A DNA stretch of 64,000 bases from an uncultured Chitinophaga sp. (lineage in GTDB: Bacteria; Bacteroidota; Bacteroidia; Cytophagales; Cyclobacteriaceae): NCBI GenBank assembly GCA_902168205.1, contig CABHOK010000003.1, positions 558,001 through 622,000 of the forward strand, in the 5' to 3' direction. The translations under genes and the position numbers were made by a program. The notes below the pieces were generated by a model. The model did not search any database. It saw only the letters and a list, made by a program, of their open reading frames with translations, and had not been told where the DNA came from. Positions 153 to 6,704 of the stretch are shown piece by piece (the first letter of the stretch is position 1; each line of letters starts with the position of its first letter).

Positions 153-2051
153 TTAGTGAATAACGAGTTTTCGGTTTGCTGACCAGGCTGCAGATGTAAT
201 TCTGACTATATATACTCCACTAAGCAATGCGCTTAGTCGGAGGGTTGCCGATCCGGATTGAGACACTTGCAACTTTGTTTGTGCTACCTGGATACCTTGC
301 GGATCGAGAATAGTGATGGTATATGCGCCATCCGGAACATCAATCAGGTCGACTGTAACATCATCGTCCTGGTTAACAGGATTCGGATATACAGATGCAA
401 ATGGTTCTGCCGGTCCATCGAATTCAATCCGTATAACTTTAAAGCGGACTGTGGTGCCATCCAGATCGGTCTGCGAGAGTCGATAGTAATATACTCCCGC
501 CTTTGCTCCGTCATCTGTAAATTGATATTTGTTTGTAAGTTGTGATGTTCCACTTCCTTTTACGGTGCCGATCGTTATAAATTCTTCACCATTGGCCGAG
601 CGCTCCAGGGTAAAATAATCGTTGTTGATCTCCGTAGCCGTTGCCCAATGCAATTCAATGGCATGTGTTTGCTCATTGTTCAATCCTTTAAAATATAGTA
701 ATGAAACAGGTAGTGGTGTATTGCCTGCACTGCCTATAATGCCGGAGTTTGCTGTACCGCTGGCTGTGCTTGCGCGTGTAGTACAAGTGTTTTCATTGCA
801 GCCACCTGTTCCACTGGCAGTGGTGGTCGTTATATTTGTTGTGGGCTGTGCTGACGAGTATATTACAACGCCCTGGCCACCACCACCGCCACCTCCGTGC
901 GATCGGGAGTCGTTTACAGTTCCTCCGCTTCCTCCGTTGGCGGCTACGGTTAATGTACAGCCTGATGCTATATTAAAAGTCTTAACGGCAAGCACTATAC
1001 TTCCTCCTGCACCTCCTCCTCCGGCTCCATCATTGCCAGAGGTATTTGCGGCTGTGCCACCACCACCGTTGGCGGATATTGTAACGGTTCCACACGCGCC
1101 AGTGGTAGTTATCTGTTTAGCGTTAATAAGAATAATGCCGCCTCCATCTGCACCGGCAGTTGCAGCACTGTTGTTTTGCTGGCCACCGCCACCGCCACCT
1201 CCCATAAAGACGCGACTGGCACTTATACTTGTGCTTAACGATATACCCCCCTGGCCTCCTACAGGAGTTGACTCACATAAATATCCAGGGCCACCGTCAC
1301 CTCCCGTAGTATAGTTTCCGCCACCGCCACCTCCGGCATTATGCAAATTACCTCCACCGCCACCGTTAAGATCTTTAGCACGACCATAAATATAGCCTGT
1401 CGATGTTATCTTATATATACTTTCTCCTTTTCTACCGGACGCCGCATTGTTGCTGGTAATCCATGTGGATGCATCACATATTACACTATTACCTATTCCC
1501 GAGCGTGTGCCGCCAATAAACCCGGCCTCATTGGCGGTGAGGTTATGCGCCAGGGTGAGTGTGCCTGATACTTCCATAGCAAGCACGCCACCAACATTTC
1601 CATTCCAATCCATGGCAGTCATGTTTGCAGTTGTAGTATAATCCGGATTACCATAGAGTCTGAACGATATAATCTGTACAGAGGAATTTGTGCCTATATT
1701 AAACGTATTACTGAGAGTTGCATTAAGTGTTATTGTGCTGGGAAGCCCGGAGCTTTCAGTGTGTGATGCGATTGTAGCTACTTCATATATACCGGCAGAT
1801 TTAATGGAGCCCAATGATCCGAAAGTAGATGCGTTGGTAACATCACCAATGACATCATCCTGCATTTGCATAATGATAATCCTGTTGCCATCTTCAAAAG
1901 TGTGAAAGGTTTCCGTTACATTCGATAAGGTTAGTACTTTGCCCGAGATAGCTGTGACTTTTGCATAGGCGTTTACTTGCGCTGATACTCTTGTGCCCGT
2001 AAAATATGCCAGGCAAAATATTAGCAGAAATATCCGGTACTCAATTCTCAT
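153..2051 (-). CDS. Secreted glycine-rich protein with type IX secretion C-terminal domain
   Basis: This predicted exported protein has 632 residues from the chosen start. The N-terminus (MRIEYRIFLL... to VSAQ) is a signal peptide; I chose the ATG at 2051 rather than the one 15 codons upstream because the signal begins there. The middle, about residues 225-400, is very rich in glycine with runs such as GGGGGG. A beta-sandwich-like segment follows (LHWATATEINNDYFTLERS, then YYYRLSQTDLDG), a pattern common just before sorting domains in this phylum. The last 80 residues (YPNP start, then GVYIVRI and a KLVIH end) form a typical type A T9SS domain, so the protein should cross the outer membrane by T9SS and be attached to the surface or released. 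No catalytic domain was recognised; an adhesin or surface-layer role is only a guess. Confidence 0.85.
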   Translation of the reverse strand: MRIEYRIFLLIFCLAYFTGTRVSAQVNAYAKVTAISGKVLTLSNVTETFHTFEDGNRIIIMQMQDDVIGDVTNASTFGSLGSIKSAGIYEVATIASHTESSGLPSTITLNATLSNTFNIGTNSSVQIISFRLYGNPDYTTTANMTAMDWNGNVGGVLAMEVSGTLTLAHNLTANEAGFIGGTRSGIGNSVICDASTWITSNNAASGRKGESIYKITSTGYIYGRAKDLNGGGGGNLHNAGGGGGGNYTTGGDGGPGYLCESTPVGGQGGISLSTSISASRVFMGGGGGGGQQNNSAATAGADGGGIILINAKQITTTGACGTVTISANGGGGTAANTSGNDGAGGGGAGGSIVLAVKTFNIASGCTLTVAANGGSGGTVNDSRSHGGGGGGGQGVVIYSSAQPTTNITTTTASGTGGCNENTCTTRASTASGTANSGIIGSAGNTPLPVSLLYFKGLNNEQTHAIELHWATATEINNDYFTLERSANGEEFITIGTVKGSGTSQLTNKYQFTDDGAKAGVYYYRLSQTDLDGTTVRFKVIRIEFDGPAEPFASVYPNPVNQDDDVTVDLIDVPDGAYTITILDPQGIQVAQTKLQVSQSGSATLRLSALLSGVYIVRITSAAWSANRKLVIH

Positions 2052-2588
2052 ACTTCTCAAACGATAGCGATTAATACTACTTATAGATATATACAATCGT
2101 CAAAATTATGTATTAATCGTTAGGGCAATTGTTAGATGTATGAATACAGTAAATTTTTATACAGTCTTGTGATGCGTAAATAATTAAGGATTAGTTATGA
2201 ATGTTTTTGTATACCTTTTAATTAGGTATTATAATTATTTGGAATACTTTTGATAAGACCAGTGAGAACGAAAGAGAGGATTTGCAATAGCCCGTTATTG
2301 GGTATGTATATTAGGCTGGATGTGTTTGTTTGATCAGTAAGCCCCCTGGTCTCTATACCCTAAAATCAGACGCCTTGAGTAATTTGATGCAAACTATAAA
2401 AAGAGCGATTCATTCCAAATTTGAATTCGTCAGTCTATTGTTATCTTCAAAAACGAAGATCTCCTCTCTGTTTCGAAAGCAGCTTCTTACTCCTTCCTCC
2501 TTACTTCTGGATTCTTAATTCGCCATAGCGCGATTTTCGAGTATTCTGTATATCTTGAAAGTAACAACCCATACTCATCTCCACCTCA
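2052..2588. other. Intergenic region between divergent genes
   Basis: About 540 AT-rich bases separate the T9SS gene (minus) from the Lgt-like gene (plus). It must hold both promoters, but no clear TAnnTTTG box stands at a convincing distance from either start. The only open frame (2330-2518, plus) has no credible protein features. Confidence 0.5.
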
Positions 2589-3356
2589 ATGAAGTACCCT
2601 GTAGAAATCGGATTGGGCAATGTTCGTGTCAGTGCTCATTTTATATTAGAGACGCTGGCCTTTATTATCGGCTTCCGGTACTTCCTATACCTCAAGCGTA
2701 AACAGTCAGACCCGATTCCTGAATCGAATCGTATCTGGATCATTATCGGTGCTGCTTTCGGTGCCTTTCTTTTTTCGCGCCTCCTCGGTTCGCTCGAAGA
2801 TCCGCAGGCATGGGCACGGGCCGACAACCCGTGGCTATATTTCTATGCGAACAAGACTATTGTGGGGGGCTTGCTGGGAGGTTTGCTGTTTGTGGAGATT
2901 ACTAAAATGTTTTTAAAAGAAAAGTCATCATCGGGCGATATGTTTACATACCCGCTTATACTGGCGATGATTATAGGTCGTTTAGGATGCTTCTCGGCCG
3001 GTATATATGAACCAACATTTGGTATAGCATCATCACTTCCCTGGGCGATGGATCTGGGCGATGGTATATTGAGACACCCGGTGGCGCTGTATGAAATCTT
3101 ATTTTTGATGTTGCTCTGGTTCTCCCTCTATAGCCTTGAGAAATATACCCTGCTGGCCATGGGTGTGCGATTTAAACTATTTATGATTGCGTACCTCATG
3201 TTTCGTTTCATACTTGAATTTATAAAGCCTGTCCACCCCCTGGTGTGGTCGCTGACAACGATACAACTGGCGTGCCTCGGTGGACTAGTGTATTACTATC
3301 GCACCCTTGCACTTTTGTTTTATAATCCCGGTAAACTTGCCATGCATGAACAATAA
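2589..3356 (+). CDS. Lgt-like (prolipoprotein diacylglyceryl transferase family) membrane protein
   Basis: An integral membrane protein of 255 residues with about seven hydrophobic segments and the Lgt fold signature. True Lgt moves diacylglyceryl from phosphatidylglycerol to the lipobox cysteine of preprolipoproteins. Visible here are GRLGCF (130-135, counterpart of the GRLGNF arginine motif), HPVALYE (163-169, as HPxxLYE) and R206 with E210 in the last part, matching the second essential arginine region. The HGGLIG motif reads VGGLLG at 92-97, so the usual His (E. coli His103) is a valine, and the usual Asn after GRLG is Cys. It overlaps the radical SAM gene by 11 bases, implying a coupled operon. 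It may be a paralogue acting on a lipid other than the standard Lgt reaction; a housekeeping lgt would be expected elsewhere. Confidence 0.8.
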   Translation: MKYPVEIGLGNVRVSAHFILETLAFIIGFRYFLYLKRKQSDPIPESNRIWIIIGAAFGAFLFSRLLGSLEDPQAWARADNPWLYFYANKTIVGGLLGGLLFVEITKMFLKEKSSSGDMFTYPLILAMIIGRLGCFSAGIYEPTFGIASSLPWAMDLGDGILRHPVALYEILFLMLLWFSLYSLEKYTLLAMGVRFKLFMIAYLMFRFILEFIKPVHPLVWSLTTIQLACLGGLVYYYRTLALLFYNPGKLAMHEQ

Positions 3357-4743
3357 ACGAAACTATATTTACTACGACTATACCGTTAGCCTTTGTACGG
3401 TGTGCCATCGGCAGATTGATGCCAAAATTATTTTCGAAGACGAAAAAGTATTCCTTACCAAGCGATGCCGTGAACATGGTTCGCAGAAAGTATTGATCGC
3501 AGATGATATTCAATACTATAAGCAGATTCGAAATTATAACAAGGCATCCGAATATCCGCTGCGTCCGCATACGGCAACACATTATGGATGTCCGTACGAC
3601 TGTGGTATTTGTCCGGATCACGAGCAGCATTCCTGTCTCACACTAATTGAAATTACAGACCGGTGCAATCTTACCTGCCCTACATGCTATGCAAGTTCGT
3701 CACCTACACATGGAAGACACCGCACGCTGGAAGAAATTGAGTTTATGCTCGATGCTATTGTGAGGAGTGAAGGTGAGCCGGATGTTGTACAGATAAGCGG
3801 AGGTGAACCGACTATACATCCCGACTTCTTTACCATACTGGATATGGCCAAGGCACGCCCCATCAAACACCTGATGGTAAATACCAATGGAATTCGTATA
3901 GCATCCGATCCTGCCTTTGCAGCACGGCTTGCATCGTACATGCCCGACTTCGAAATATACCTGCAATTTGATTCTTTCGAAGAGCATGCCTTGCAGCAGC
4001 TGCGTGGTAAGGATATGCGTGCAGTTCGCGAGAAAGCTATAGCAACATTAAACGCACTGAACTTGTCAACCACGCTGGTGGTAACATTGCAGAAAGGGTT
4101 GAACGACCATGAGATTGGTAAGACAATCGACTATGCTTTGCAGCAACGTTGTGTAAGGGGTGTTACGTTTCAGCCTACGCAAGTGAGCGGAAGATTGGAA
4201 CATTTCGATCCTGCAGTAAACCGTTTAACCAATACAGAGATCAGACGAAAGATACTGGAGCAGACTGCGGTGTTTCAACCCAATGATCTTATACCGGTGC
4301 CGTGCAATCCGGATGCGCTGGTAATGGGCTATGCACTGAAGACGGATGCAGGTGTACACGGACTTACCCGACTTATTGATCCGGAATTCTTGTTGAATAA
4401 TTCGCGCAACACCATCGTATATGAACAGGATGAGAAGTTGCATGGTCATGTGACGAAAATGTTCAGCACCGCTAATTCCATTGATTCACTTGAAAATGAT
4501 TTTCATCATTTACTATGTTGCCTGCCTGACATTATAGCACCGGAGTTCTCCTATAATAATTTGTTCAGAGTTATTATCATGAACTTTATGGATGCGTATG
4601 ATTTTGATGTGAGGGCAATCAAGAAATCATGTGTTCATATTGTTGATACATCGGGTAAAATAATACCATTCGAAACCATGAATTTGTTTTACCGCCCCGA
4701 GTTTAATGAGAAACTGAAACTGCTTCGCGAAGAAATACTATAG
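3346..4743 (+). CDS. Radical SAM protein resembling tetraether lipid synthase (Tes/MJ0619 family)
   Basis: A 465-residue radical SAM enzyme. I start at the ATG at 3346, which overlaps the Lgt-like gene by 11 bases; an ATG at 3307 lies deeper inside that gene. Cysteine motifs in order: an N-terminal CxxC (17, 20) with C41, suggesting a rubredoxin-like metal site; CPYDCGICPDH with C82, C86, C89; and the SAM-cluster motif CNLTCPTC with C107, C111, C114. GGEP follows at about 152-155. The arrangement GCPxDCGxCPxH directly before the CxxxCxxC motif is characteristic of archaeal Tes, which joins two lipid alkyl chains through an sp3-sp3 C-C bond. Pairing with an Lgt-like lipid enzyme and a small membrane protein suggests work on membrane lipids. 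The substrate is unknown; MoaA-like labels are less apt. Confidence 0.8.
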   Translation: MNNKRNYIYYDYTVSLCTVCHRQIDAKIIFEDEKVFLTKRCREHGSQKVLIADDIQYYKQIRNYNKASEYPLRPHTATHYGCPYDCGICPDHEQHSCLTLIEITDRCNLTCPTCYASSSPTHGRHRTLEEIEFMLDAIVRSEGEPDVVQISGGEPTIHPDFFTILDMAKARPIKHLMVNTNGIRIASDPAFAARLASYMPDFEIYLQFDSFEEHALQQLRGKDMRAVREKAIATLNALNLSTTLVVTLQKGLNDHEIGKTIDYALQQRCVRGVTFQPTQVSGRLEHFDPAVNRLTNTEIRRKILEQTAVFQPNDLIPVPCNPDALVMGYALKTDAGVHGLTRLIDPEFLLNNSRNTIVYEQDEKLHGHVTKMFSTANSIDSLENDFHHLLCCLPDIIAPEFSYNNLFRVIIMNFMDAYDFDVRAIKKSCVHIVDTSGKIIPFETMNLFYRPEFNEKLKLLREEIL

Positions 4744-4745
4744 CT

Positions 4746-5015
4746 ATGAGCAATATTAAGAAAATTGTAGGCATTAACTTATGTATTATGTTGGCGTACA
4801 TGGTATTAATCAATATTACGTCAGTAGGTCAGGAACGTCAACTTGCCGTGTTGGTGTTTTCGGCTTTTGCTGTAGGTGTTCATGTAGCGATCAGCGTATT
4901 GGTAGCTATTATCTTTTTCATTCAGAAAAATCCACAGGCACAAGCATTTCTGTTGAGCGCAGGTCTTGTTTTATTAATTGGCTTTTCAGCGTGCCTGGGT
5001 AGTACAGCGCTATAA
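4746..5015 (+). CDS. Small membrane protein in the Lgt-like/radical SAM operon
   Basis: An 89-residue hydrophobic protein with three likely membrane helices (about 7-27, 34-59 and 66-86) and a short QKNPQAQ loop between the second and third. It begins two bases after the stop codon of the radical SAM gene, so it is almost certainly co-transcribed and probably works with it. I recognise no family. It might anchor or assist the lipid-active partners. Confidence 0.7.
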   Translation: MSNIKKIVGINLCIMLAYMVLINITSVGQERQLAVLVFSAFAVGVHVAISVLVAIIFFIQKNPQAQAFLLSAGLVLLIGFSACLGSTAL

Positions 5016-5047
5016 TACACAGTGGCATTTGTTTTCATAGCCGGCAT

Positions 5048-5071
5048 GTATACCCGAAATATAGGGTATAC
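5048..5071. repeat. Perfect inverted repeat after the radical SAM operon
   Basis: GTATACCC (5048-5055) and GGGTATAC (5064-5071) are perfect 8-bp arms around an 8-base loop, followed by CTTTA. It could be a weak terminator of the operon ending at 5015 or an operator of the next gene. The T-run is too short to decide. Confidence 0.45.
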
Positions 5072-5174
5072 TTTAGTGGTTGTATGAAGTATGATGACTA
5101 TGAATGTTTAATCATTAGTAGACGTTTATCAGATATACTGTTACCTTAGCATAAGCTAAACCAAACAAGTGATC

Positions 5175-5606
5175 ATGATAGAAGGAATATGGCAGGGCGA
5201 ATACGTTTATGATGAATACTGTAAAGTTCCGTTCCAGCAAGTTACTATACCTTTTACCTTGAGTATCAGACAGTCGGGAGTGATGGGAATGAGCGGTGGG
5301 CTTGAGGGGGTGTGGCAAGACGATTCTGCTATCAGCAATATTACCATGCCAGCCAATGTGTACGGCCTTGCCAAAGACAACTCGTTATTCTTTGTAAAAC
5401 TGTATCCGAAAACATTCGGCTATGATGAAAGCGGCAATCTCTTTGTTGGTGATGAAGCGCATCCGGAAATTTTCTATACCGGTATGTTATGGAAGGATGA
5501 TATCTTTCACGGCACCTGGCGTATCGAACGAACCTTTAGAAAAGTAAACGGAAGGTTATATCAGATACTGGCAGGGTCAGGGATGTGGTGGATTAAAAAG
5601 GTATAG
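5175..5606 (+). CDS. Hypothetical soluble protein
   Basis: A 143-residue protein of unknown function. An in-frame GTG at 5169 lies two codons upstream, but the ATG at 5175 (MIEGIWQGEY) is the better start. It has no signal peptide or membrane segment. It is rich in aromatic residues and alternates short beta-like stretches, starting with GIWQGEY and closing with GTWRIERTF and MWWIKKV. This hints at a small beta-barrel of lipocalin type, but no family motif is firm. It is a single-gene unit with its own terminator. Confidence 0.65.
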   Translation: MIEGIWQGEYVYDEYCKVPFQQVTIPFTLSIRQSGVMGMSGGLEGVWQDDSAISNITMPANVYGLAKDNSLFFVKLYPKTFGYDESGNLFVGDEAHPEIFYTGMLWKDDIFHGTWRIERTFRKVNGRLYQILAGSGMWWIKKV

Positions 5607-5673
5607 CGACTATTATATTATTGATTAAGTATAGGATTTAACCTCCTTACAGACATTGGTCATCATTACAGGA

Positions 5674-5704
5674 AATCCTTCGGTGAATAGCCGGAGGATT
5701 TTTT
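5674..5704 (+). terminator. Intrinsic terminator
   Basis: AATCCTTCGG (5674-5683) pairs with CCGGAGGATT (5691-5700) with one T-G wobble across a 7-base loop, followed by TTTTATTT. It closes the gene ending at 5606. Confidence 0.85.
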
Positions 5705-5798
5705 ATTTGAAAGATGAGTGATCACCCTCTATCTCTCCGGTATTTTCCTGCCAGGTTAAATCAATGATTTTTTACAATTCTGCGTTTTCACTGCCGGC

Positions 5799-5806
5799 TA
5801 ATTTTG
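5799..5806 (+). promoter_or_regulatory. Bacteroidota -7 box TAATTTTG
   Basis: TAATTTTG matches the TAnnTTTG consensus of the primary sigma factor of Bacteroidota and ends 19 bases before the start codon at 5826. No clear -33 TTG is seen. Confidence 0.5.
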
Positions 5807-5825
5807 ATAAAAAATAACAGGAACG

Positions 5826-6704
5826 ATGAACGCAAATAACAATCCGAAAGCGGGGCTATGCCTGATGGCGGCTTTACTGCTAACCACCGTGCTGAGTGTA
5901 GCACAGGGAAAAATAAATCATAATCCGAAAACTAAAACAAACAATACCATGTCTTCCATTCAGCATAACAAGGAGGTAGTTCGTAAAATTTATGAAGAGT
6001 CGTTGAACAAACGAAATATAGCATTGCTGCACGAGTTTATTGCCGATACATATACCGGCATTGATGGCGCCAAAGGTGCAGATAGTTTTAACGGCCCGGT
6101 AACAGCCGTGATCAAAGCATTTCCGGATGCACAATGGCATATTGAAGAACTTATTGGTGAAGGCGATCGTGTGGTTGTCCGGTGGAGAATAGAAGGTACG
6201 CACAAGGGACCGTTTCAAAATATACCGCCTACCGGTAATAAAGTGTCAGTTAAGGGAATGGGTATTTATGAACTGGAAGATGGTAAAGTAACGGCAACGC
6301 AAATACAAACCGATCGCTTTACGTTTCTGCAACAGCTTGATGTATTACCGGCAGATATAGCGGTGCTCCAACGCAGACAATCAAAAGACCGCGTCAGCTT
6401 TATTGACAAGTTTCTGATACCTGCCCCTGCCCGGCAGGAATTCTATGAGCGAATGAATATAAACCGAAGCTTCATTAAAACGCTTCCAGGCTTTATTGAA
6501 GATGCAGCTTACGAGTATACAGATGATCAGGGGAATTTAATTTGTGTAACGGTAGCCCTATGGGAAAATCGTGAAGCCCTTGCCAAGGCAAAAGATGCCG
6601 TGCAGGCAGAATACAGAAAGCAGGGCTTTGATGCTGCAGAAATGTTAAGGCGATTAAATATTACTGCAGATCGTGGCATCTATACTCCGGTTGCAAATCC
6701 ATGA
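5826..6704 (+). CDS. Exported fusion of a SnoaL-like ester cyclase domain and an ABM-like monooxygenase domain
   Basis: A 292-residue protein. Residues 1-27 form a signal peptide ending in SVAQ. Residues about 45-170 are a SnoaL-like polyketide/ester cyclase domain, seen in VVRKIYEESLNKRN, the central DAQWHIEELIGEGDRVVVRW and the GTHKGPFQNIPPTG loop. Residues about 190-285 resemble an antibiotic-biosynthesis-monooxygenase (ABM, ferredoxin-like) domain, with PGFIEDAAYEYTDDQGN and VALWENREALAKAKDAV. Both folds bind small hydrophobic molecules. Joining them in one exported protein suggests handling or detoxifying a small organic compound in the periplasm. An internal ATG at codon 42 would give a cytoplasmic form. 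Confidence 0.75.
   Translation: MNANNNPKAGLCLMAALLLTTVLSVAQGKINHNPKTKTNNTMSSIQHNKEVVRKIYEESLNKRNIALLHEFIADTYTGIDGAKGADSFNGPVTAVIKAFPDAQWHIEELIGEGDRVVVRWRIEGTHKGPFQNIPPTGNKVSVKGMGIYELEDGKVTATQIQTDRFTFLQQLDVLPADIAVLQRRQSKDRVSFIDKFLIPAPARQEFYERMNINRSFIKTLPGFIEDAAYEYTDDQGNLICVTVALWENREALAKAKDAVQAEYRKQGFDAAEMLRRLNITADRGIYTPVANP

Follow-up and report, generated by a model that had tools for sequence, protein, structure and literature searches.

The DNA analysed here (the window) is a stretch of 64,000 nucleotides from the 7.3-Mb genome of an uncultured Chitinophaga sp. It carries, on the forward strand, three adjacent genes for a relative of the lipoprotein-modifying enzyme Lgt, a radical S-adenosylmethionine (SAM) protein related to tetraether synthase (Tes), and a small membrane protein. 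These three genes almost certainly constitute one functional unit, the small protein is probably its substrate, and the chemistry performed is likely to involve a lipid. Taken together, the data suggest an undescribed way of attaching a lipid anchor to a protein and altering it. The reading as a whole, in which the Lgt-like enzyme would lipidate a C-terminal cysteine of the small protein and the radical SAM enzyme would act on the same substrate, is put forward tentatively, with a chance of being right that we place somewhat below even.

The first gene (2589..3356, +) encodes an Lgt-like integral membrane protein of 255 residues and was identified from its open reading frame (ORF), PF01790, residue alignment, an AlphaFold2 model and a fold match. 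The second gene (3346..4743, +), with its ATG at 3346, encodes a Tes/TrsS-type radical SAM protein of 465 residues, as judged from domain, profile, alignment and fold evidence. The third gene (4746..5015, +) encodes a small hydrophobic membrane protein of 89 residues ending in KNPQAQAFLLSAGLVLLIGFSACLGSTAL, the proposed substrate, and was defined by its ORF, motif statistics and alignment. The first-pass annotation had given the same three ORFs, and its spacings were exact: the Lgt-like and radical SAM ORFs share 11 bases (3346-3356), and 2 bases (4744-4745) separate the radical SAM ORF from that of the small protein.

The pairing of the Lgt-like and radical SAM genes was not due to chance. 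From 413 loci related to the radical SAM gene the best 80 were taken, all with Bacteroidetes titles except one titled only as bacterium, and up to 5 kb of flanking sequence was fetched for each. In 74 of the 80 loci, an Lgt-like gene preceded the radical SAM gene on the same strand; the gap was at most 150 bases in 67 of these 74 and exceeded 900 bases in three. Six loci had no adjacent Lgt-like gene (L031, L034, L035, L043, L060 and L068, the last with only 315 bases upstream), and a search of the whole genomes detected such a gene elsewhere in four of the six. The first-pass annotation had proposed a search for co-occurrence of the pair, and this was done in a phylum sample of 395 Bacteroidota genomes. 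The radical SAM gene occurred in 34 genomes (28 close, 3 TrsS-like and 3 distant relatives), the Lgt-like gene in 32, and both in 31, which corresponds to a hypergeometric probability of 1.7e-41 if kinship is ignored. The retention of the parts in genomes where they lie apart (G092, G327 and G451-G454) is a stronger argument than this probability. In G092, the radical SAM protein, the Lgt-like protein and the small protein are encoded on three separate contigs, and in G327 the Lgt-like gene lies on another contig than the radical SAM gene. The three genomes with the radical SAM gene alone (G124, G153 and G357) were the three with distant relatives, and in G153 a more distant Lgt of its own adjoins the gene.

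Of the 31 genomes with both enzymes, 30 have the small protein, 29 of them beside an enzyme gene and one (G092) elsewhere; 18 of these 30 were detected by the motif filter and 12 by eye, with no chance control. In the remaining genome (L119) the radical SAM match ends 123 bases from the contig edge and lacks 35 profile positions. Within the genus of the source organism, only 4 of 7 genomes have the radical SAM gene, which suggests frequent gain or loss.

The third gene was the most informative part of the unit and points to a protein, beyond a free lipid alone, as the substrate. The region 3' of the radical SAM gene was surveyed in 85 sequences (84 loci and the window), with close relatives retained and not thinned. 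Two sequences had less than 300 bases downstream (L014 and L022), five gave no ORF that passed the filter (L025, L034, L038, L075 and L076), and 78 were tested. In L034 and L038 the mechanically called ORF began within the radical SAM gene, and a nearer start gave the motif in both. The ORF with the motif lay 160-161 bases further on in L075 and L076, and upstream of the Lgt-like gene in L022 and L025. A cysteine was present within the last 23 residues in 77 of the 78 tested proteins compared with 36.7% of shuffled sequences, and small residues at position -2 and at -3 or -4 relative to it were present in 74 of 78 compared with 4.5% of shuffles. Exactly one cysteine occurred in 52 of the 78 proteins. 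With a stricter first filter, the motif was found in 73 of the 85 sequences and in 9 of 327 other hydrophobic ORFs.

When the 77 proteins were aligned on this cysteine, G or S occupied position -4 in 76 and position -2 in 73, and mean identity near the cysteine was 41%, compared with 16-29% in the preceding stretches. In an alignment of 38 members, picked from the 77 after the first copy of L027 (which has no cysteine) and L009 had been left out, C83 was the sole invariant column. C83 of the window protein aligns with this fixed cysteine and is preceded by A at position -1; codons 75-84 (VLLIGFSACL; 4968..4997, +) cover the end of the last hydrophobic segment and the lipobox-like setting of C83. 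The tail after the cysteine was 2-13 residues long. Summed over the 77 proteins, the net charge was +251 before the last helix and -1 after the cysteine. Because of this charge pattern and the positive-inside rule, the cysteine is predicted to lie outside, on the side of the membrane where Lgt works; the outer face is given as the site of Lgt action in the available text of PMC4728403. With a positive loop, a hydrophobic helix and [GS]-[LF]-[GS]-x-Cys near the predicted outer face, the C terminus looks like a lipoprotein signal. The small genes were present in 1 to 4 tandem copies, which fits the expectation for substrates. No family was assigned to the window protein in Pfam and NCBIfam scans, and the same scans of the other small proteins gave no consistent family, only scattered weak matches. 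Nor was any convincing further copy found elsewhere in the source genome.

The Lgt-like protein scored 61.6 bits with PF01790 (LGT; gathering score 24.9) and 37.1 bits with the Lgt equivalog TIGR00544, under the cut-off of 118.9. Its AlphaFold2 model had a mean predicted local distance difference test score (pLDDT) of 92.8, and E. coli Lgt (5azb) was the only fold match in the PDB with an E value of at most 0.001 (E 2.4e-8, template modeling [TM] score 0.55). In E. coli Lgt, Arg143, Asn146, Glu202, Tyr235 and Arg239 are among the residues that hold the lipid head, according to the available text of PMC4728403 and PMC8689077. R131, E169, Y202 and R206 of the window protein correspond to E. coli R143, E202, Y235 and R239 and were conserved in 77 of 77 rows, and the equivalent of E243 was mostly kept. 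The link from Lgt to phosphatidylglycerol drawn in the first-pass annotation agrees with the retained residues, which bind the diacylglyceryl moiety of this lipid. Other positions had been exchanged: Asn146 was replaced by C134 in all 77 rows, Tyr26 by H17 in 75 of 77, and His103 of the HGGL motif, lost in the window protein, by V92. H17 and C134 were also present in a Mycobacterium row (L135) and in a row from the phylum sample (L129), and the Lgt rows of L125-L127 have C134 with Tyr still at position 17. The isolated Lgt-like protein of G075, a genome without the other two parts, has Q at the H17 position.

The retained pocket and the catalytic set, rebuilt alike across the family, suggest that the enzyme is active, with an altered chemistry or substrate, and is not a dead copy. 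A dead Lgt paralogue was considered and set aside; decay is unlikely, given an invariant pocket and replacements that are conserved in their turn. The source genome holds three further LGT-family genes, two with the canonical His and Asn and one variant with Cys at the Asn position. A third kind of LGT in this genome (L005; G000:C3:1854361-1855089) has RLGCFLAGCCYG, lacks His103 and carries Tyr where E. coli Lgt has Tyr26.

The radical SAM protein carries PF04055 and the N-terminal zinc ribbon PF23545, which is common to the Tes group. The block reported in the first pass, GCPxDCGxCPxH before CxxxCxxC, is present as GCPYDCGICPDH at residues 81-92, followed by CNLTCPTC at residues 107-114. C82, C86, C89 and H92 of the N-terminal cluster and C107, C111 and C114 of the SAM cluster were invariant in 83 of 83 aligned rows, and the rubredoxin-like site C17/C20/C41/H44 (CX2CX20CX2H) was likewise kept in all 83. 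Tes itself has a C-X2-C-X20-C-X2-H rubredoxin motif and an N-terminal cluster held by CX3CX2C and a His, as described in the accessible part of PMC9433317. Further cysteines invariant in the family were C97, C320, C391, C392 and C429. The block was not characteristic of Tes, as had been supposed, since it also occurs in a TrsS-type row (L134) and is missing in the Lgt-linked rows L129 and L135 and in L130, which nearly reaches the Tes cut-off. In the L129 and L135 proteins the GCPxDCGxC cluster block is wholly gone, and the QHTC cysteine and the zinc-ribbon cysteines are kept.

The one strong sequence match in the PDB was tetraether synthase (7tol), with a phmmer E value of 2.7e-64, the next match having 2.6e-5; the profile E value was 1.9e-81. 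The AlphaFold2 model had a mean pLDDT of 76.4 and was weak at residues 352-399, where C391 and C392 fall. The structural comparison with Tes suggested in the first pass placed 7tom and 7tol first in a Foldseek search of the model, 7tom with an E value of 1.3e-32 and a TM score of 0.79. The peptide maturases SkfB and SuiB were among the fold relatives that followed, at far lower scores. The best of 54 NCBIfam families was TrsS (NF045646; 319.9 bits, cut-off 490), and Tes (NF045702) scored 278.5 bits against a cut-off of 450. For comparison, the bacterial protein of L128 passed the Tes cut-off with 493.8 bits, and that of L130 fell just short of it with 441.9. The labile Met439 of Tes aligned with Met412, and Tyr459 was replaced by I432; the Tes variants Y459F, Y459L and M439A are still active according to the part of the literature available. 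The segments ISCM, RCCIH and PFCTYN of Tes contain cysteines, of which the second in RCCIH alone survived (as C429), the others being replaced by I, S or E; we infer which of these are ligands of the C-terminal cluster, as the available text of the Tes paper names only Met439. C97 and C320 were common to the TrsS rows L134, L137, L139 and L140 and were not found in L128 and L130.

The Tes relationship claimed in the first pass therefore stands as homology, with the Tes structures as best match, and fails as identity, the protein being nearer to TrsS, under both cut-offs and without most cysteines of the C-terminal cluster. It is a true Tes homologue with the Tes/TrsS fold that is filed neither as Tes nor as TrsS. 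Membership in Tes proper was rejected on the basis of the NF045702 cut-off and the replaced C-terminal cluster residues. Hydrogen abstraction of the Tes/TrsS kind is probably its mechanism too. It did not group with a known non-lipid family, the nearest named family being TrsS, which has no known substrate. In a tree of 21 radical SAM rows, the core family formed one clade (100/100), and the Lgt-linked rows came together on a branch opposite Tes and TrsS with modest support (83/81) and a long-branch warning; with its long branches and unstarred deep-fork values of 82/80 and 83/81, the tree cannot settle a single origin of the Lgt-linked genes. The source genome contained no other close relative of the radical SAM gene, only one weak match (E 1.6e-4). 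A selenocysteine was considered for the radical SAM gene of G212 and rejected, as the TGA fits a terminal stop and the ORF is otherwise open.

Similar gene sets were also found beyond the core family. The TrsS-like loci L125, L126 and L127, a type that scores best with TrsS, contain the radical SAM gene, an Lgt gene and then a small protein ending in ...LLFGACIIGLGGYSLFH, ...LLFGACMVGIGGASLFNLFK or ...IFGSCLSILFNPK. L129 has a small protein (...LLSGGMCIFLPQPL) beside its Lgt. In L114-L118 (family f24) a small gene with a Cys near the end lies between both enzymes, and L120, L121 and L131 also carry a small gene. Ten plasmid records contained relatives of the radical SAM gene, of which seven were examined (H1-H4, H6, H7 and H9; H5, H8 and H10 were left out). 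All three genes occur in a row on a Persicobacter plasmid (L138). On a plasmid of the actinomycetote Mycobacterium branderi (L135 3328-6521; NZ_AP022607.1), an Lgt-like gene, two tandem small genes whose products end in SGGLCTGLNPADYAG and TVGVCTGLNPAMYTGA, and a radical SAM gene form a row, annotated as family protein, hypothetical proteins and radical SAM protein. In the 14 kb examined at the Tes-scoring loci L128 and L130, there was no Lgt gene and no comparable small protein. For Nonomuraea (L136), no clear trio was seen among the hydrophobic ORFs of the + strand, the sole ORFs examined. The four TrsS loci L134, L137, L139 and L140 showed no Lgt in flanks of 4-5 kb, and a methyltransferase gene adjoins each. 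An adjacent methyltransferase gene is a trait of the TrsS family.

Several genes near these loci were recorded as observations in their own right. L134, L137, L139 and L140 come from a Mycolicibacterium vanbaalenii plasmid and haloarchaeal plasmids, with the TrsS-like gene followed by the methyltransferase gene; CcdA and a disulfide oxidoreductase are encoded near L134, and redoxin-type genes near L137 and L139. The TrsS-like gene of L127 has as neighbours (4784-5855) a methyltransferase gene of the ICMT family (PF04140, E 4.3e-13) and a DUF4395 gene, the latter also present in L125 and L126. ICMT-type carboxyl methyltransferases are known from C-terminal lipidated cysteines, and the presence of such a gene near the small protein of L127 is suggestive. 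Among the 84 loci, a dihydrouridine-synthase-like gene lay near the trio in 35, among them flavobacterial loci such as L033, L037 and L044, and a permease resembling lipoprotein-release permeases in 31, both labelled by eye. Neighbours shared beyond the trio, in at most 35 of 84 loci, probably reflect general flavobacterial synteny and were not used as evidence. In the window, the other neighbour of the trio was an ORF without a Pfam match, and positions 153-2096 (-) encode a Gly-rich protein of 647 residues; judged by eye, its end looks like a tail for type IX secretion.

We propose that the trio may be a dedicated modification system with the small protein as its substrate. Most probably, the Lgt-like enzyme would transfer a diacylglyceryl group from a phospholipid to the C-terminal cysteine; that this cysteine is lipidated in this manner falls, in our judgement, just short of an even chance. 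Before or after this transfer, the Tes/TrsS-like radical SAM enzyme would attack a C-H bond of this substrate by radical chemistry. Judged by analogy with Tes, an acyl chain would be the most likely site, and other parts of the lipid or the peptide are possible ones. LspA should not cut where position -1 is V or I, so that in such members the protein would stay whole and carry the lipid close to its C terminus. Release of a short lipopeptide is conceivable in members with A, S or T at -1 (A in the window), whatever use the cell may make of either product. A more far-reaching version would be an inverted lipoprotein system, with the signal at the C terminus and the diacylglyceryl group attached by the rebuilt Lgt to the last cysteine, either without cleavage or before cleavage where -1 is small. 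The Tes-like enzyme would then join its acyl chain to another by a C-C or C-S bond. The outcome would be either a very short lipopeptide or a protein held by a cross-linked lipid that might span the membrane. We regard this specific version as improbable.

A number of observations weigh against the lipidated-substrate proposal. The signal is C-terminal and in this respect not a standard lipobox, and neither is the V or I found at position -1 in 50 of the 77 proteins. The motif also occurred in 9 of the 327 other hydrophobic ORFs, which are a looser background, and L027 lacks the cysteine in its first small ORF, the motif being carried by its second copy. The Lgt-like protein lacks His103, Tyr26 and Asn146; E. 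coli Lgt mutants of His103, Tyr26, Asn146 and Arg143 are inactive or strongly reduced, according to the parts of PMC4728403 and PMC8689077 available. Its activity, as predicted here, is a guess. The cysteine is predicted to lie outside and the radical SAM protein is presumably cytoplasmic, which makes access of both enzymes to one substrate hard to explain. The small protein could instead be a membrane anchor or a lipid-presenting partner. The genomes of L031 and L068, of unknown completeness, had no Lgt-like gene at E values of at most 1e-20, and the radical SAM and small genes are present there. Conversely, G075 has the Lgt-like gene (L143 5153-5998) and neither the radical SAM gene nor a convincing small protein.

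Three other explanations were considered. The first-pass annotation pointed to a radical modification of a membrane lipid or a lipidated product; in the free-lipid form of this idea, a bacterial route to chain-joined lipids, the radical SAM enzyme would join or alter acyl chains of free lipids that the Lgt-like protein presents or transfers, the small protein being an accessory anchor or lipid-binding subunit. Among solved structures, Tes comes closest in both sequence and fold, and the ligands of the rubredoxin site, the N-terminal cluster and the SAM cluster are kept. The tunnel of Tes binds bacterial phospholipids, as stated in the available text of PMC9433317, and the accessible part of PMC8941075 lists 456 bacterial Tes homologues, for which the Tes authors suggested a role in branched tetraethers or membrane-spanning lipids. 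We nevertheless consider the free-lipid explanation unlikely, because the score lies nearer to TrsS than to Tes and under the Tes cut-off, the cysteines of the Tes C-terminal cluster are mostly replaced, and L128 and L130, which do score with Tes, have no Lgt or small protein within the 14 kb examined. It also leaves a cysteine fixed in an otherwise free sequence, and its tandem copies, unexplained. Of the lipid-modification idea, lipid chemistry remains likely and the identification with Tes does not. The fixed cysteine and tandem, fast-changing small genes beside a maturase-like enzyme would be accommodated if the radical SAM enzyme acted directly on the small protein, perhaps on its cysteine or on small residues close by, and did so ahead of membrane insertion. 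Such a maturation would resemble that of ribosomally synthesized and post-translationally modified peptides (RiPPs), with the Lgt-like protein handling, exporting or capping the product. The radical SAM gene and the small gene do occur together without an adjacent Lgt-like gene (L031, L034, L035, L043 and L060), and SkfB and SuiB are distant fold relatives. This explanation, too, is unlikely: no peptide maturase family came near its cut-off among the best 25 of the 54 NCBIfam matches, Tes stands far ahead of all other solved relatives, and a relative of Lgt in the same unit is left without a reason.

The third possibility, a TrsS-like function, assumes that the radical SAM enzyme acts on the substrate of TrsS and that the Lgt-like and small proteins make up a membrane-bound variant, with a lipid or cysteine carrier holding that substrate. 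TrsS gave the best NCBIfam score, C97 and C320 are common to the four TrsS loci and not to L128 and L130, and the L125-L127 type combines the best TrsS score with an Lgt and a small protein. Yet the score is below the TrsS cut-off, the four TrsS loci have a methyltransferase and no Lgt in their flanks, and, TrsS having no known substrate, the explanation predicts little; we consider it quite improbable.

In the usual view, Lgt acts on N-terminal signals and Tes-type radical enzymes make free membrane lipids. If the proposed lipidation and radical modification of the small protein are true, the trio would link protein lipidation to radical C-H chemistry. Bacterial Tes homologues exist and are not known to form biphytanyl chains, according to the available text of PMC9433317. 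The trio would then offer a concrete candidate substrate for those relatives that lack an assigned role, a point left open in the same text. Counting such genes as evidence of bacterial membrane-spanning lipids may mislead the search for the sources of branched tetraethers. In the open-access literature we found no description of the Lgt-like/radical SAM pair or of an inverted lipobox.

Among known systems, the putative C-terminal anchoring domain lipo-invert (NF058595) has a name that suggests a lipoprotein-like signal at the C terminus, and the existence of this model may indicate that others are thinking of similar tails. As a family for the small proteins it was unsupported. It did not match the window protein, and 7 of the 38 small proteins gave matches below the cut-off of 37 bits (best E 0.0058), which do not show homology; at E values of at most 10 it matched as weakly in 14 of 14 control genomes. 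None of the 395 Bacteroidota genomes exceeded the cut-off, and the 11 with E values of at most 1e-4 are not trio-bearing. The bacterial membrane-spanning lipid synthase Mss, compared here by description only, is described as Tes-like in catalytic architecture, and no partner of the Lgt or small-protein kind is mentioned in the accessible part of that description (PMC13274423). According to the available text of PMC11186832, Gms is another type of enzyme, with a SPASM domain. The radical SAM (seleno)protein TrsS, a single entry in a selenoprotein list in the accessible part of PMC13188914, resembles the window protein in its best profile score, a full-length alignment and the shared C97 and C320; it differs in the cut-off, which the window protein does not reach, in the methyltransferase partner absent from the window operon, and in the four TrsS loci without Lgt. 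Archaeal Tes (GDGT-MAS, MJ0619; 7tol, 7tom; NF045702) shares domain order, fold, the ligands of the rubredoxin site, N-terminal cluster and SAM cluster, and Met439 as Met412. The window protein differs from it in scoring under the cut-off, in the replacement of Tyr459 and most C-terminal-cluster cysteines, in the invariant C97, C320, C391 and C392, and in the linkage of its gene to an Lgt and a small protein. Compared with the prolipoprotein diacylglyceryl transferase Lgt (PF01790, TIGR00544; 5azb), the first protein of the trio is under the equivalog cut-off and has His103, Tyr26 and Asn146 replaced, and it agrees in fold and in the residues of the lipid pocket. The small protein, finally, differs from the lipobox lipoproteins that are substrates of Lgt and LspA in its C-terminal signal with a short tail, in the frequent V or I at -1 and in having more helices before the signal, and resembles them in the positive stretch, the helix, the small residues and the Cys at the predicted outer face.

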